DNA of 64,000 nucleotides from contig NZ_JAIWPR010000005.1 in NCBI RefSeq assembly GCF_021191635.1, positions 1 to 64,000 on the forward strand, given 5' to 3'. A model generated the notes under the pieces. It saw nothing but the letters and a program-made list of their open reading frames with translations. It ran no database searches and was not told the origin of the DNA. Within the stretch, counting starts at the first letter, position 1. Each line of letters begins with the position of its first letter. Position numbers and translations under genes: made by a program. Origin of the DNA: Alterluteimonas quercicellularis (GTDB lineage: Bacteria > Pseudomonadota > Gammaproteobacteria > Xanthomonadales > Xanthomonadaceae). Positions 23,402 through 30,622 of the stretch are shown here, one piece after another.

Positions 23402-23436
23402 AAAAAAATGGCCGGGATACCCCGGCCATTTTTATG
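23402..23436 (-). terminator. Bidirectional terminator after the Oar-like receptor
   Basis: The stem AAAATGGCCGGG / CCCGGCCATTTT has a 4-nt loop (ATAC) and is flanked by a run of seven A on one side and five T on the other. It therefore works on either strand. It lies 16 bp beyond the receptor stop at 23452. Confidence 0.88.
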
Positions 23437-23451
23437 CAACCACAAGCGAGA

Positions 23452-26400
23452 TCAGAATTTGTAGCGGAAGCCCACCTGCAATGCCCAGCGCGACTGGCCG
23501 CGGTCGTCGTACAGGACCGGCGACCAGACGCGGTTGGGGTCGAAGTTGTAGACGTACTTGCCATCCTGGACGCCGGCGAAAGTCACCGCACGCAGGTCGC
23601 TGTACGGGGACTGGTCGACGATCTGCCCCCAGTCCTTGTTGAGCAGGTTGCCCACGTTCATGACGTCCAGCCAGATCTCGCTCTTGTGGCCGTCGAAGAA
23701 GCCGGGCAGTTCCTGGCTGATGCGCAGGTCGAAGGTGTTGATCCAGCCCGAGCGGCTCGCGTTGCGCTCGGCCGCACCGCCCGCGTACCGCTGCAGATCG
23801 GGATGGCCGGACAGCCACTCGAAGAAGGCCTGCTCCATCGCCGCGCCACCGGTGAACACCACGTCGCCCGGGCCGGTGGGAATGTAGAGCAGATCGTTCG
23901 TGTAGCCGTCGCCGTTCGCATCGTTGAGGAACCGCCAGCTGTGCGGACGTCCGCTACGCCCTTCGTAGACCAGGGTGAAGTTGGTGTTGTAGTCGCCGAA
24001 GAACGCCTTTTCGAAGGTCAGCGTGCCGATCACGCGGTCGCGGATCTCGTAGTTGGAGCGCGCGGCCACGTCCTCGTTGGGATCGAAGATCGCCTTGTTG
24101 CTCCAGTTGGAGATCGCGCGCGAGGACGTCAGCGGGCTCACCTCGGTGGCGCGGGTATAGGTGTAGCCCAGCGACCAGGCCCAGTTCTCGATCAGCGGCT
24201 TGCTCAGGCTGAAGGTGAACTGCTGGCCACTGCCCTTGTCGGTGTTCTTCATCAGGATGACACCGTCGTTGTGCCATCCGGTGACGTTCTCGTAACCCGG
24301 CAGTGTGTCTGCGGTACCCGCCACGCCCGTGTTGCCGTTGGCGCGCCGGCCAGTTCCCGCCGCGATGTTGCTCCAGTAAAGCGGACGCCCGTCAGGCCCG
24401 TAGCCGGTGGGCGTGCCCAGGTCCAGGCGCTCGAAGTGCAGCGCGTCCTTGACACGGGTGAACAGCGCCTCGGCGGACGCCACGATGCCGTACCACGGCA
24501 GTTCGTGGTCGAAGGCGAGGTTGGCTTTCCACACGGAGGGCTGCTGGATGCCGTCCTCCATCAGGTTGACCATCATCTGGTAGCCCGCGGCCGGCGCCGG
24601 CGTGGTCGGGTTGTCCGGGTCCGGCACGAACGGCAACGACGCCCAGATCGCATCGCGCTGATCGACCGGCACGTTCTCCATCAGCTGGTTGTAGCCGATC
24701 AGGCCAAAGCCGCTGTTCTGGTAGGAGTTGCCCACCCACACGTTGGCGGCCGCGCCCTGGAACAGGCCCACGCCGCCGCGCAGCTGGGTCGGACGGTCGC
24801 TGTCGAAGGTGTAGTTGAAGCCGAAGCGCGGCTGCCACAGCTTGGCGTCGAGCACGTTGCGATTGTCGAGCCCGTAGATTTCCTGCACCAGCAGGTTATG
24901 GTCGGCGACGTCGTCCAGGTCCGGAATGTCGACGCGCAGGCCGAACATCAGGCTCAGGTTGTAGTTCACCGCCCAGGTGTCCTGCACGAACAGGCCCAGG
25001 TTCTTGTGCTCGTAGTTCATCGCCACGCTGTCGAGGCCACGGCCCGGCACCGGAGCGTTGAGGGTGTACTGCCAGTACTCGCCATCGCGGAAATGGTCGA
25101 GGCTGGCGAACTGGTACGAGCCCCAGATGTTCTGGGCGTACAGGTTGTAGACGTCGTTGCGCTCCCAGTCGAAGCCGAACTTGACCGTGTGGTCACCGGC
25201 GTACCAGGTTGCGGCGCCGAACAGCGTGTCGGTGGTGGTCTCGACCTGGTTGCCGTGGCGGAACTCGTCGGTACCGAAGTTCAGGTACGGCGACGACGGC
25301 TCGTCCGGGCGGTTCTCGGGGCCGAAGCCGATCGACATCTGCGGCAGGCGCGCGTAGACCGAGCTGAGCGAGTCGTAGTTGCGGCGCGAGCCCTTGAACT
25401 CGGTGGAGAAGTTCGGCGACCAGTCGCTGAAGAACTGCACCGAGTGGCTGTCGAAGGTCTTGGTGATGTCGTACCAGCGGCTGTTGAGGCTGAGCGAGTT
25501 CTCGCCCGAGCCGGCCAGCACCGGGTCGACCTGCTCGGTCTCGGAGTAGCGGTAGGACAGGCGGTGGTTGTCGCTGATGTTCCAGTCGAACTTGACCGCC
25601 TTCTCCTCGAGCTCGGTCTTGATGCCGTCCGGGGTCTCGAGCGAGCCGATGTCGATGCCGTAGACGTCGCGCGCGATCTGCTGCGCCTGGGCGATCTCCT
25701 CCTGGGTGATGCCGACGATGTTCGAGGCGCTGGAGCCGATCGGGCCGAAGCTGGGCGACGGCGAGTTGCGGGTGAACTTCTCGTAGTTGGCGAAGAAGAA
25801 CAGCCGGTCCTTGACGATCGGGCCGCCGAAGGTCAGGCCGTAGGTCTCCTCGTCCTCGAAGCCGGAGAACGGCGAGCCGTCCTCGTTGTCGCGCACCCAG
25901 TCCTGGTCGCGGTAGACGTAGTAGACCGAGCCGCTGAAGTTGTTGGTGCCCGACTTGGTCACCGCGTCGATCACCGCGCCGGTGGCGCCGGTGATGGTGG
26001 TGTCGTAGTTGGACAGGTCGACGTTGATCGCCTCGATCGCGTCCATCGACACCGGCTGGCGCAGCAGCGGGAAGTTGCTGGCCTCGAGGCCGAAGGTGTC
26101 GCTGGTGTTGACGCCGTCGATGCGGATGGCGTTGTAGCGCGGGTTCTGGCCGCCGGCGCTGATCTCCAGCCGGCCCTTGTCGGTCTGGGCGACGCGCGGG
26201 TCGAGGCGGACGAAGTCCTGCAGGTTGCGCTGGATGGTCGGCAGCGCCTCGATCTGCTCGAGGCCGAGGTTGGTGCCCGCGCCCATCTTGGCGGAACTGA
26301 AGACCTCCGAGCCGGCGGTCGCGGTGGCGTAGACGGTGCCCAGGGTGGTCATGTCGCCGCTGAGCTGGGCGTCGACCTGGCCGGTCTGGTTCAGCGAGAG

Positions 26401-26706
26401 GTAGACGTCGTCGCGGGTCGAGGTGCCGGCGCCGGCCTTGTTGATGGTGACGGTGTAGGGACCGCCCACGCGCAGGCCGCGCGCGTTGTAGCGGCCGCTG
26501 GCGTCGGTGGTGGCGCGGCTGACCGTGCCCGACTCGACGTGGACGATGGTGACTTCCGCACCGGAGACCGGCTGCCCGTCGTTGCCCATGACGGTACCGG
26601 CGAGACCGGAGGACGTGGTGCTCTGCGCGAACGCGGGCGCGGCGGCCAGGGCCGCGATCAGGCCGAGCGACAACCGGGAAAGGCGGACGCGATGCTTGGG
26701 AGTCAT
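23452..26706 (-). CDS. TonB-dependent receptor, Oar-like (carboxypeptidase-regulatory-like N-domain)
   Basis: The 1084-residue product is an Oar-type outer-membrane transporter. A signal peptide covers residues 1-27 (ending AFAQ). A carboxypeptidase-regulatory-like domain follows at about 35-110 (LAGTVMGNDGQPVSGAEVTI, DASGRYNARGLRVGG). The plug comes next (SGGQNPRYNAIRIDGVNTSD, GATGAVIDAVTKSGTNNFSG) and then a large barrel ending WALQVGFRYKF. Oar proteins in Myxococcus and relatives are linked to development and to protease or outer-membrane-vesicle transport; in xanthomonads their ligands are mostly unknown. It is a single-gene unit with its own terminator. Upstream, 26707-26964 (258 bp) contains only AT-rich promoter-like patches such as GGTTAACAACAGATTAAC. 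Confidence 0.93.
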   Translation of the reverse strand: MTPKHRVRLSRLSLGLIAALAAAPAFAQSTTSSGLAGTVMGNDGQPVSGAEVTIVHVESGTVSRATTDASGRYNARGLRVGGPYTVTINKAGAGTSTRDDVYLSLNQTGQVDAQLSGDMTTLGTVYATATAGSEVFSSAKMGAGTNLGLEQIEALPTIQRNLQDFVRLDPRVAQTDKGRLEISAGGQNPRYNAIRIDGVNTSDTFGLEASNFPLLRQPVSMDAIEAINVDLSNYDTTITGATGAVIDAVTKSGTNNFSGSVYYVYRDQDWVRDNEDGSPFSGFEDEETYGLTFGGPIVKDRLFFFANYEKFTRNSPSPSFGPIGSSASNIVGITQEEIAQAQQIARDVYGIDIGSLETPDGIKTELEEKAVKFDWNISDNHRLSYRYSETEQVDPVLAGSGENSLSLNSRWYDITKTFDSHSVQFFSDWSPNFSTEFKGSRRNYDSLSSVYARLPQMSIGFGPENRPDEPSSPYLNFGTDEFRHGNQVETTTDTLFGAATWYAGDHTVKFGFDWERNDVYNLYAQNIWGSYQFASLDHFRDGEYWQYTLNAPVPGRGLDSVAMNYEHKNLGLFVQDTWAVNYNLSLMFGLRVDIPDLDDVADHNLLVQEIYGLDNRNVLDAKLWQPRFGFNYTFDSDRPTQLRGGVGLFQGAAANVWVGNSYQNSGFGLIGYNQLMENVPVDQRDAIWASLPFVPDPDNPTTPAPAAGYQMMVNLMEDGIQQPSVWKANLAFDHELPWYGIVASAEALFTRVKDALHFERLDLGTPTGYGPDGRPLYWSNIAAGTGRRANGNTGVAGTADTLPGYENVTGWHNDGVILMKNTDKGSGQQFTFSLSKPLIENWAWSLGYTYTRATEVSPLTSSRAISNWSNKAIFDPNEDVAARSNYEIRDRVIGTLTFEKAFFGDYNTNFTLVYEGRSGRPHSWRFLNDANGDGYTNDLLYIPTGPGDVVFTGGAAMEQAFFEWLSGHPDLQRYAGGAAERNASRSGWINTFDLRISQELPGFFDGHKSEIWLDVMNVGNLLNKDWGQIVDQSPYSDLRAVTFAGVQDGKYVYNFDPNRVWSPVLYDDRGQSRWALQVGFRYKF

Positions 26707-26964
26707 GGTGTTGGGCCTCGGAGATGCTGGGAAAGACGGGACCGCTCGCGCAGGAACTCGCGGACGGGCAGACGAATGCGGTGTTGTGGAGGATTCCCCT
26801 GTACGCCGCGACGGCTTCGCCCCGCTGCGGTTAACAACAGATTAACATGGTAGACGGCCCAGATGACAGCGCGATGACGCCTGCGGGCGTGCGCAAACCA
26901 CTGACTTCGCTTGGGTTTTGCGGCCGGATCGAGAAAGGACCGCTAAGTCCTTGTCACACCGTCA

Positions 26965-27570: not shown

Positions 27571-28322
27571 GCCGACGGCTCCCGGATGCGGCCGCGCCAG
27601 GCGGCGCCGTCGGCCGACAGCAGTTCGACGCAGACCTGCGCGTAGGCGGCCGGATCGACCGCCAGCCCGTCCTCGCCGTCCACGTAGGCCTGCGCGCGCA
27701 GCGGCGTGCGCATGGGACCGGGCCGCAGGCCGCAGACCCGCACCGGGGTCGTGGCGAGCTCGGCCGCCAGCATCGGCACCATCGCTTCCAGCCCGGCCTG
27801 GGACACGCCGTAGCCGCCCCAGAAGGCCTGCGCGCTGCGGGCCGGGTCGTCGAGCACGAACACCACCGCGCTGTCCTCGGCGCGCCGCAGCCAGGGCATG
27901 CACGCCTGGGTGAGCCACCAGCGCGCGGTCAGGTTGACGTGCAGCGCCCGCGCGAACACCGCCGGATCGGTGTGCTCGAGCGGAGTGAGCCCGCGGAACT
28001 CGGCGGCGCAGTGCAGCACGCCGTCCAAGCGGCCGTAGGCGTCGCCGACGCGGGCGGCCAGTTCGGCGTAGTCGTCGGCGCCGGCGCCTTCCAGGTCGAG
28101 CGGGTACAGCGCCGCGTCGCCGCCGCCGGCGACGATCGCGTCGTGCACCCGGCTCAGCCGCGGCACCTTGCGGCCCAGCAGCACCAGCCGCGCGCCGGCC
28201 CCGGCGCACGCCAGCGCGGCGGCCCGGCCCAGCCCGCCGTAGGCGCCGGAGACCAGGACCACCCGGTCGCGCAGCGCAAGCGCGCCCGGCAGCGGGAGCG
28301 GCGTCGGCAGGGTCGCGCTCAC
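27567..28322 (-). CDS. Short-chain dehydrogenase/reductase (YciK-like)
   Basis: The 251-residue product is an SDR oxidoreductase with the cofactor motif VSGAYGGLGRAAAL near residue 25 and an NADP-type basic residue after strand 2 (LLGRKVPRL). The usual catalytic YxxxK is altered: the expected region reads FWGGYGVSQAGLEAM, that is Y-G-V-S-Q, so Lys is replaced by Gln. The expected Ser before it is also not obvious (VVFVLDDPARSAQAF). Catalysis may therefore be impaired or atypical. It starts with GTG overlapping the grxD stop (GTGA) and overlaps marC in the same way. Confidence 0.88.
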   Translation of the reverse strand: MSATLPTPLPLPGALALRDRVVLVSGAYGGLGRAAALACAGAGARLVLLGRKVPRLSRVHDAIVAGGGDAALYPLDLEGAGADDYAELAARVGDAYGRLDGVLHCAAEFRGLTPLEHTDPAVFARALHVNLTARWWLTQACMPWLRRAEDSAVVFVLDDPARSAQAFWGGYGVSQAGLEAMVPMLAAELATTPVRVCGLRPGPMRTPLRAQAYVDGEDGLAVDPAAYAQVCVELLSADGAAWRGRIREPSA

Positions 28323-28645
28323 GCCCGCTGCACCTCCGCCACCATGCGCGCCAGTTCGCCGGACTCGTGCAGCTCCACGGTGATGTCGCAGCCGCCGATC
28401 AGCTCGCCGTGGATGAACAGCTGCGGGAAGGTCGGCCAGTTGGAATAGCGCGGCAGGTTGGCGCGCACCTCGGGGTCCTGCATGACGTTGACCGTGTGCA
28501 GCTGCTCGGGATCGAGCCCGGCCGCGCGCAGGGTCTCGACCGCGCGGCTGGAGAAGCCGCACATCGGGTACTCGGGCGTCCCCTTCATGAAGAGCACGAT
28601 GGGATGCGCTTCGACCTCGGCCTGGATGCGCTGCATGACCGCCAT
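28319..28645 (-). CDS. grxD: Monothiol glutaredoxin Grx4 (GrxD)
   Basis: The 108-residue protein is a CGFS-type monothiol glutaredoxin (FMKGTPEYPMCGFSSRAVE, active Cys near residue 30), with GSH-binding segments WPTFPQLFIHGELIGGCD. Such proteins bind a [2Fe-2S] cluster as a glutathione-bridged dimer and carry clusters from the assembly machinery to targets, often with BolA. The start at 28645 is preferred because GGAG lies 8 nt upstream; a longer reading exists. It heads an operon with an SDR and a MarC protein by 4-nt overlaps. The SOD-like gene starts divergently 131 bp away. Confidence 0.96.
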   Translation of the reverse strand: MAVMQRIQAEVEAHPIVLFMKGTPEYPMCGFSSRAVETLRAAGLDPEQLHTVNVMQDPEVRANLPRYSNWPTFPQLFIHGELIGGCDITVELHESGELARMVAEVQRA

Positions 28646-28776
28646 GATCAGCTCCTGCGTCGCGCGGCGGCGGCGGGCGCGAAGGACGCGCGAAGACCGG
28701 CCGCTGGGCGTGGGATTAGAATCCGCCATTGTAAGCGCTCGCGCCCTCGCGCACCTTTTCCCGGTCCAGCCCAAGC

Positions 28777-29364
28777 ATGCCCATCGAACTCGCCGCACTC
28801 CCCTACGACCGCACCGCGCTCGAGCCGCACCTGTCCGGCGACACCGTCGAGCAGCACCACGGGCACCACCAGCGGGCCGACGTCGAGCGGGTCAACGCGC
28901 TGGTCGCCGGCACCCCGCTGGCGGAGGCCAGCCTGGGCGACATCGTGCGCCGCGCCCAGGGCGCGCTGTTCGAGCACGCCGCGCAGGCCTGGAACACCGA
29001 GCTGTACTGGCGCTGCCTGCAGCCGGCGGCCGCCGGCGGCGGCGGCGAGCCCGGACCGAAGCTGGCGCAGGCCATGGACGCGGCGTTCGGCGGCTATGCG
29101 GCGTTCCGGGAACGCTTCGAGCAGGCGGCGCTGCGCGGCTTCGGCGCCGGCTGGGCCTGGCTGCTGCAGCGTCCCGACGGACGCCTGGCGATCGCCGCGA
29201 CCCCCAACGCGGTCACCCCGATCGTCGGCCGCGACCATCCCCTGCTCGCCTGCTGCCTGTGGCAGCACGCCTACTACCTCGACTACCGCGACCAGCGCGA
29301 GAAGTACCTCGCCGCCTGGTGGCAACTGGTGAACTGGAGCTACGTCGCCTCGCGGATGCGGTAG
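28777..29364 (+). CDS. Degenerate Fe/Mn superoxide dismutase homologue
   Basis: The 195-residue protein aligns over its full length with SodB (MPIELAALPYDRTALEPHLS...NWSYVASRMR), without indels up to residue 80. Of the four metal ligands, His27 (EQHHG) and His164 (WQHAYYLDY) remain. The ligand His74 is Thr in AWNTELYW, and the ligand Asp (157 in SodB) is Cys160 in ACCLWQHAYY. The second-sphere Tyr near residue 35 is Asp (QRADVERVN) and the Glu of WEHAYY is Gln. The outer-sphere Gln70 is kept. Standard SOD activity is therefore unlikely. The intact fold and clean frame argue against a decaying pseudogene. It is divergent from Grx4. TAGAAT at 28717-28722 may be its -10. The stop TAG lies in a GTAG. 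Confidence 0.9.
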   Translation: MPIELAALPYDRTALEPHLSGDTVEQHHGHHQRADVERVNALVAGTPLAEASLGDIVRRAQGALFEHAAQAWNTELYWRCLQPAAAGGGGEPGPKLAQAMDAAFGGYAAFRERFEQAALRGFGAGWAWLLQRPDGRLAIAATPNAVTPIVGRDHPLLACCLWQHAYYLDYRDQREKYLAAWWQLVNWSYVASRMR

Positions 29365-29384: not shown

Positions 29385-29483
29385 GTCGCGCGCAGGCGCG
29401 CTCCTACAGCGCTTCCGCGGCCCTTCGTAGGAGCGCGCTCGCGCGCGACGGCTCTCCCCGCGAAGCGCGCAGCGCGCTTCTAC
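29385..29483. repeat. Cluster of three GTAG REPs between the SOD-like gene and purK
   Basis: Copies lie at 29385-29407 (minus), 29427-29449 (plus) and 29462-29483 (minus, GTAGAAGCGCGC type). The first two form an inverted pair and could fold as one large hairpin between these convergent genes. The third supplies the stop codon of purK: the TAG at 29482-29480 is the last three bases of its GTAG. Confidence 0.8.
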
Positions 29484-30622
29484 GCCGACAACGCCGCGAC
29501 CGCGGGCGCCACCTGGGCCTCCCGCGACAGCGCTGCGCCGACCCGTTCCAGCGCCGCTGCCAGCACCGCGGCATCGTCGGCGCGCAGCGTGGCGTGGCCG
29601 ACCTTGCGGCCTTCGCGCGGCGCCTTGCCGTAGTCGTGCCAGTGCCCGCCCGGCTCGGCGAGGACGGGCAGCGGGTCGGGCATCGCCCCCACCCAGTTGA
29701 GCATGCAGGCGTGGCCGCGCATGGCGGTGGCGCCCAGCGGCAGCCCCAGCACGGCGCGCAGGTGGTTCTCGAACTGGGAGGTCTCGGCGCCCTCGATGGT
29801 CCAGTGCCCCGAGTTGTGCACACGCGGCGCCATCTCGTTGGCCAGCAGCCTTCCGTCGCGGCAGAACAGCTCCAGCGCGAACGCGCCCACGTAGTCCAGG
29901 CGTTCGGCCAGCGCGCGCGCATGCGCCTGCGCCTCGCGCGCCAGCGCCTCGGGCGCCGCGGCCGGCGCCAGGCTGGCCGAGAGCACGCCGTCCACGTGCC
30001 AGTTCGCGGTCAGCGGCCAGGCGCGGAAGGCGCCGTCGCGCCCGCGCACCGCCACCACCGAGTACTCGCGCTCGAAGGGCACGAAGGCCTCGGCGATCAG
30101 CCCCACCGTGCCGGCCTGCGCGCCCAGCGCCTCCCAGGCGCGGTCGAGGTCGGCGGGCCCGTGCAGGCGGAACTGCCCCTTGCCGTCGTAGCCCAGCCGC
30201 CGGGTCTTCAGGATGCACGGCAGGCCCACCCGGACCACGGCGGCGTCCAGGCCGGCGCGCGATTCCACGTCGGCGAACTCCGGCACCGGGATGCCGAGGT
30301 CGCGGAACAGGGTCTTCTCCGCCAGCCGGTCCTGCGCCATCGCCAGCGCGTGCGGGCTCGGGAACACCGGCACCCGCTCGCCCAGCCAGCGCGCGCTCTC
30401 GGCGGGCACGTTCTCGAAGTCGAAGGTGGCCACGTCCACGCGCGATGCGAACTCGGCCAGCGCCGCCTCGTCGCGGTAGTCGCCCACCAGCAGCGGGGCG
30501 AACTGGCCCGCGCAGGCGTCGGCCACGGTGTCCATGACCAGGAAGCGCAGCCCGAGCGGGGCGCCGGCCAGCGCCAGCATGCGCGCCAGCTGGCCGCCGC
30601 CCAGAATACCGACGGTGGTCAT
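29480..30622 (-). CDS. purK: N5-carboxyaminoimidazole ribonucleotide synthase PurK
   Basis: PurK (380 residues) is the ATP-grasp enzyme that carboxylates AIR to N5-CAIR in purine synthesis. The N-terminal Rossmann-like part has [17 protein letters not shown]. The ATP-grasp core shows [18 protein letters not shown] and [18 protein letters not shown], and the metal/substrate segment is [19 protein letters not shown]. The start at 30622 overlaps the purE stop as ATGA. The stop TAG is part of a GTAG repeat. The product is passed to PurE, encoded just upstream. Confidence 0.97.

Follow-up and report, generated by a model that had tools for sequence, protein, structure and literature searches.

The four metal ligands of Fe/Mn SODs are called universally conserved in SodFM1-5 by the legend of one survey (PMC10172142). 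Departures elsewhere in the active site have been described in X. citri, whose FeSOD homologue Xac3/XAC2677 is predicted to be inactive from the changes His31Cys and Tyr35Glu, an active-site alteration that the accessible text of that study calls Xanthomonas-specific (PMC6322740). In Stenotrophomonas maltophilia, according to the available part of a further report, cells lacking SodB are hardly less viable and the enzyme is marginal in superoxide defence; its authors suggest another, unidentified function (PMC6479884).

The gene investigated here lies in the window, that is, the whole stretch of 64,000 nucleotides of DNA that was analyzed, which is located on contig C44 of a Luteimonas genome and has Luteimonas huabeiensis HB2 as its nearest relative in our set (94% identity). 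The locus comprises the following features:

28319..28645, minus strand: grxD, a Grx4-type monothiol glutaredoxin (CGFS), divergent neighbor, above the TIGR00365 cut-off
28646..28776, no strand: divergent intergenic region, from an alignment of the six-genome subclade that includes the window
28777..29364, plus strand: sodB-like (SodFM2-derived) putative pseudo-SOD gene, from ORF, Pfam, phmmer against 1isa and AF2 model
29480..30622, minus strand: presumably a purK-like gene, convergent flank with approximate start, from the ORF list; it adjoins grxD where the sodB-like gene is deleted

The sodB-like frame runs from an ATG start to a TAG stop and encodes 195 amino acids with no break. Its product matches both Sod_Fe_N (1.4e-19) and Sod_Fe_C (1.9e-33) above the respective Pfam cut-offs, which places it in the Fe/Mn SOD fold family (SodFM). 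The phmmer alignment to E. coli FeSOD (PDB 1isa; E 5.3e-60) extends end to end and is ungapped through residue 80, bearing out the intact frame and gapless SodB alignment to residue 80 described in the initial annotation. The AF2 model (pLDDT 93.0, pTM 0.90) superimposes on the FeSODs 2nyb and 1isa with an rmsd of 0.9 Å over 191 residues, and the ten nearest solved structures share 41-47% identity with the protein. The protein scores 225.5 bits against the NCBIfam FeSOD equivalog (cut-off 348), a cut-off that is non-discriminating here since the ligand-complete Luteimonas copy L051 also falls below it (298.2).

The divergent glutaredoxin is ordinary both by its TIGR00365 score (135.4 bits against a cut-off of 117.1) and by its CGFS motif, and we rejected the idea of an unusual Grx4. 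Candidate -10 boxes, TAGAAT (plus strand, 28717-28722) and TACAAT (minus strand, 28733-28728), are conserved in the window's six-genome subclade; they may act as promoter elements, and the sodB-like gene is plausibly expressed. Elsewhere in the window, a 1139-aa open frame (23434-26853) lies opposite a 1084-aa gene (23452-26706, minus strand) that we take to be TonB-receptor-like; the open frame is probably a G+C-rich shadow frame.

The active-site positions of the window protein are listed below, with counts referring to the 47 Luteimonas copies that lack both His74 and Asp160 (ligand-less copies):

28855..28857, plus strand: His27, metal-ligand position 1, retained (1isa alignment); His in 43/47
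28879..28881, plus strand: Asp35, replacing E. coli FeSOD Tyr34 (residue reading and 1isa alignment); Tyr in 0/47
28984..28986, plus strand: Gln70, second-sphere Gln typical of SodFM2, retained; Gln in 46/47
28996..28998, plus strand: Thr74, replacing ligand His73 (1isa alignment); N/T/L/D/E/C/Q/I across the genus
29254..29256, plus strand: Cys160, replacing ligand Asp156 (1isa alignment); Ser in 25/47, Cys in 19/47
29263..29265, plus strand: Gln163, replacing the WEH Glu (residue reading); Gln in 6/47
29266..29268, plus strand: His164, metal-ligand position 4, retained (1isa alignment); His in 45/47

With His26, His73, Asp156 and His160 of 1isa paired to His27, Thr74, Cys160 and His164, the protein reads His/Thr/Cys/His in place of the His/His/Asp/His ligands of a SodFM2 (FeSOD) enzyme. 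The N-terminal water-coordinating Gln is present as Gln70, while only one half of the pair formed by active-site Tyr34 and His30 is left, His31 being kept and Tyr replaced by Asp35. Alignment to E. coli FeSOD thus reproduces the ligand readings of the initial annotation as well as its Tyr to Asp and WEH Glu to Gln changes and its retained Gln70. Only Cys160 is new in the window protein, as Cys159 is the usual FeSOD residue in the family, carried by 99 of the 100 copies with all four ligands. The His/Thr/Cys/His set recurs in 9/47 ligand-less copies, among them those of L. huabeiensis HB2 (L033/L128, 94% identical) and of the independent genome NML91-0213 (L130), and sequencing error, already doubted from the number of changes at the site, is thereby ruled out.

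A dismutase that still works, perhaps slowly, on this altered ligand set would fit the predicted fold, the remaining half of the ligands and Gln70. However, Tyr35 is gone, as are two ligands of the first shell, among them the sole carboxylate, and the survey legend holds all four ligands to be universal in SodFM1-5 (PMC10172142), making residual dismutation highly improbable. The genome also encodes a second SOD of Mn type with all four ligands on the same contig, ~52 kb away (G000:C44:81564-82151), whose best NCBIfam score is with the MnSOD model (280.8 bits, below the cut-off of 363), in addition to two Cu/Zn SOD matches.

The sodB-like gene is divergent from grxD in 49/52 Luteimonas genomes, and 47 of the 49 retained copies miss both His74 and Asp160. 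Conservation of the altered form next to grxD and the presence of the four-ligand second SOD support the earlier suggestion that this is no ordinary dismutase. Residue 74 of the ligand-less copies is Asn in 15, Thr in 12, Leu in 7, Asp in 5, Glu in 5 and Cys, Gln or Ile in one each, with replacements that differ by clade; residue 160 is Ser in 25, Cys in 19 and Ala, Asn or Pro in one each, hence Ser or Cys in 44/47. No new residue at 74 or 160 is common to all of them. In a midpoint-rooted tree, for which the program warned of long branches and from which the cut fragment L113 was left out, a single branch with support 100/97 separates the 47 ligand-less copies from the 101 other rows, so that ligand loss most simply happened once in their lineage.

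The remaining Luteimonas genomes depart from this pattern in different ways. In three of them (G199, G226, G235) the gene is deleted and grxD directly adjoins purK; the stretch examined there gives no significant SOD match. The site is complete in L051 (G214). L052 (G230) has intact ligands and no second SOD and clusters with another genus in the tree; it probably represents a misplaced genome that belongs to that other genus. Two ligand-less copies on long branches, L073 (G233) and L074 (G221), have lost nearly all active-site residues, their frames still being open; no internal stops occur in sodB-like copies among the matches listed. Some Luteimonas genomes (G204, G220, G236, G198, G221) additionally encode a third Fe/Mn SOD (L078-L082) of 223-238 aa with complete ligands and 39-43% identity to the window protein.

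Conservation of part of the pocket raises the question of whether the site has been re-purposed, with His27, His164 and Ser/Cys160, joined in one clade by Asp/Glu74, holding another metal or a small molecule for a different chemistry. His27 (43/47), His164 (45/47), Gln70 (46/47) and Ser/Cys160 (44/47) are all consistent with this, as are the pairings of Asp/Glu74 with Cys160 (9/10) and of Asn74 with Ser160 (14/15), as if the two positions still packed together, the sequences being related rather than independent. Against it, Leu74 (7/47) and Ser160 (25/47) make a poor ligand set and the new residue at 74 or 160 is never shared by all copies, so we consider a re-purposed site unlikely. The initial annotation had also proposed a redox or peroxide sensor built on the Cys159/Cys160 pair, perhaps working with Grx4. 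Fourteen copies besides the window protein have the pair and grxD is the divergent neighbor, but Cys-Cys is found in just 15/47 copies compared with Ser160 in 25/47, including the close relative L. abyssi (L035), and Cys159 is ancestral and lost in 27/47. We therefore rejected the pair as a general function. Nor does the linkage show a special Grx4 partnership: divergent grxD/sodB is the common layout of the family, canonical SodB included (147/149 loci; for L052 and L113, the SOD match is close to the edge of a contig or grxD is there only in part). A Cys-pair sensor is accordingly extremely unlikely.

Selection on the gene was estimated from disjoint pairs picked for protein identity >80%, which puts the fastest lineages, including the degenerate L073 and L074, outside the count; dS is rough because the eight genes checked have a third-position G+C of 80-96%. 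Thirteen ligand-less pairs gave a dN/dS of 0.013-0.105 (median 0.043), with every pair rejecting equal rates (2*delta lnL 77-171) and substitutions concentrated at third codon positions. The corresponding median is 0.032 (0.005-0.140) for 17 canonical FeSOD pairs and 0.103 (0.048-0.213) for 7 pairs with second-sphere changes. In same-genome comparisons of 16 pairs, from which G178-G194 was dropped because its sodB-like estimate was saturated, SodA ranged from 0.000 to 0.059 and grxD from 0.000 to 0.071, and the sodB-like dN/dS exceeded that of the Mn-type SOD (SodA) in 13/15 usable pairs. Constraint is therefore strong yet looser than on the working enzyme of these genomes, and the close pairs combine loss of catalytic residues with purifying selection, as in a pseudoenzyme.

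These estimates bear on the possibility of a decaying gene heading for loss, the kind of random variation that the initial annotation had named as evidence against its reading. One half of that picture is present, as residue 74 varies between clades; the other is not, as the tested close pairs are under strong purifying selection. Decay would account for the degenerate L073 and L074, the three deletions and a dN/dS that is usually above that of SodA, but not for values near those of intact FeSODs in 13 pairs, the third-position bias or the lack of stops among the matches listed; we disfavor it and regard it as very unlikely. Selection on a conserved antisense gene, with the pseudo-SOD frame as a by-product, has next to no chance of being correct. 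A 225-aa antisense ORF is indeed listed for the window, and 35/47 copies have an open codon-aligned antisense frame, but this frame contains stops in 12/47, and of the two remaining antisense frames one is closed in 47/47 and one in 46/47; with the frame not conserved, this explanation was rejected.

We searched 198 genomes of the family, three of which gave no match, and tabulated 149 SodB loci, of which 148 were classed in an association test across 50 genera (L113 dropped; genera outside Luteimonas sampled). The four ligands or residues 31, 35, 70, 126 or 163 show a change in 73/99 genomes that carry another full Fe/Mn SOD and in 0/49 that do not, where second-SOD presence was scored from match counts and five genomes with only a weak second match (G020, G025, G042, G057, G143) were scored as without. 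By genus, changes occur in 8/15 with a second SOD versus 0/35 without (Fisher p 1.2e-5, kinship uncorrected; in the tree, genera of the former kind group together). A second SOD does not force active-site change, 26/99 genomes being unchanged at the tested positions despite having one. Of the additional SODs encoded away from grxD, the 25 second or third ones that were read by residue (L078-L093, L097, L120-L127; L089 and L092 come from genomes without a sodB-like gene) are all MnSOD-type with four ligands. A distant type of SOD, marked by the motifs HSHWENNYGG or similar, LHE.YFD and MYEHSY, appears in scattered genomes (L076 in G199, L095 in G225, L212 in G057); L076 is outside the 25 and the weak second match of G057 is of this different type.

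Six genera (g2, g7, g11, g18, g19, g53) have intact ligands and a changed second sphere (25 copies), and among the 148 loci ligand loss was found only in Luteimonas and one g29 genome (G145). The copy of the latter, L208, shares its reading Gln/Leu/Asn/His with Luteimonas G232, apparently through an independent loss. Taken together, the active site looks as if it erodes stepwise where a second SOD is present. A Ser/Cys160 pattern search of 398 genomes of the order matched 55, 39 of them outside the family; tblastn revealed no SOD in the pattern matches of the 30 outside genomes examined (0/30), with 9 outside and 14 in-family non-Luteimonas matches left out. Since the pattern, which does not cover serine codons of the TCN type or forms with Pro163, recovered only 5/10 Luteimonas genomes in the set, it permits no inference of absence elsewhere.

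We favor the interpretation that the grxD-linked SodB of Luteimonas is a pseudoenzyme, which is probable on the present evidence: dismutation would have been taken over by the Mn-type SOD and the gene kept for a putative non-catalytic function. According to this model, the grxD-linked iron SOD (SodFM2/SodB) lost two of its four ligands and the active-site Tyr as the MnSOD-type enzyme (SodFM1) of the same genomes presumably made its dismutase activity dispensable, and purifying selection would keep the SOD fold together with some residues of the pocket (His27, Gln70, Trp126, Trp162, His164). The window protein most likely has no SOD activity and acts by binding, perhaps as a stable binding or scaffold protein whose partners might be the Mn-type SOD in a hetero-oligomer, Grx4 or RNA. 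Counting against a pseudoenzyme, the conservation of His27, Gln70 and His164 seems higher than a plain scaffold would require. Nor is the pseudoenzyme indispensable everywhere, given 3/52 deletions and near-complete site loss in L073 and L074. More tentatively, and with somewhat less than even confidence, the FeSOD of the Lysobacteraceae may carry an old metal-independent second function, so that where an Mn-type SOD takes over dismutation the site could erode from the second sphere first to the ligands last and the protein still be retained, with Luteimonas as the end point and a genus-wide bacterial SodFM pseudoenzyme.

SodFM proteins are highly conserved metalloenzymes, and here a ligand-less copy is under selection near that on intact FeSODs. 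Graded intermediates in related genera and the ligand-complete L051 within the same genus belong to the same case, which makes both the route from enzyme to pseudoenzyme and the role of SodB beyond dismutation testable. For annotation it is a warning, as such genes are likely counted as SODs.

Compared with canonical FeSOD (SodB/SodFM2; E. coli 1isa and the Lysobacteraceae SodB by grxD), the window protein shares fold, length, N-terminal Gln and divergent grxD but differs in two of four ligands as well as in the active-site Tyr and the Glu of WEH. Like Xac3/XAC2677, it is an FeSOD homologue beside an MnSOD with an altered active site, predicted inactive or of unassigned function; the changes that the accessible text names for the X. 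citri protein are His31 to Cys and Tyr35 to Glu, and no ligand loss is named there (PMC6322740). We found active-site changes in eight genera, compared with the Xanthomonas-only claim in that text (PMC6322740); the Cys31/Glu35 pattern in 5/7 of its copies suggests that g18 is Xanthomonas. S. maltophilia SodB is likewise an FeSOD marginalized by MnSODs for which another function is proposed, but its metal ligands are conserved according to the available part of that paper (PMC6479884). No report of Luteimonas SodB ligand loss, or of ligand loss across a genus, was found in the open-access literature searched; milder FeSOD active-site erosion is already published for Xanthomonas (PMC6322740), and genus-wide ligand loss is what is added here as far as that literature shows. 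FeSOD homologues are also part of a large complex in the plastid RNA polymerase, as PAP4/PAP9 (FSD3/FSD2; PDB matches 8qma and 9epc). The SOD fold is re-used for binding in the yeast mitoribosomal proteins mS42 and mS43, a eukaryotic, ribosomal case.
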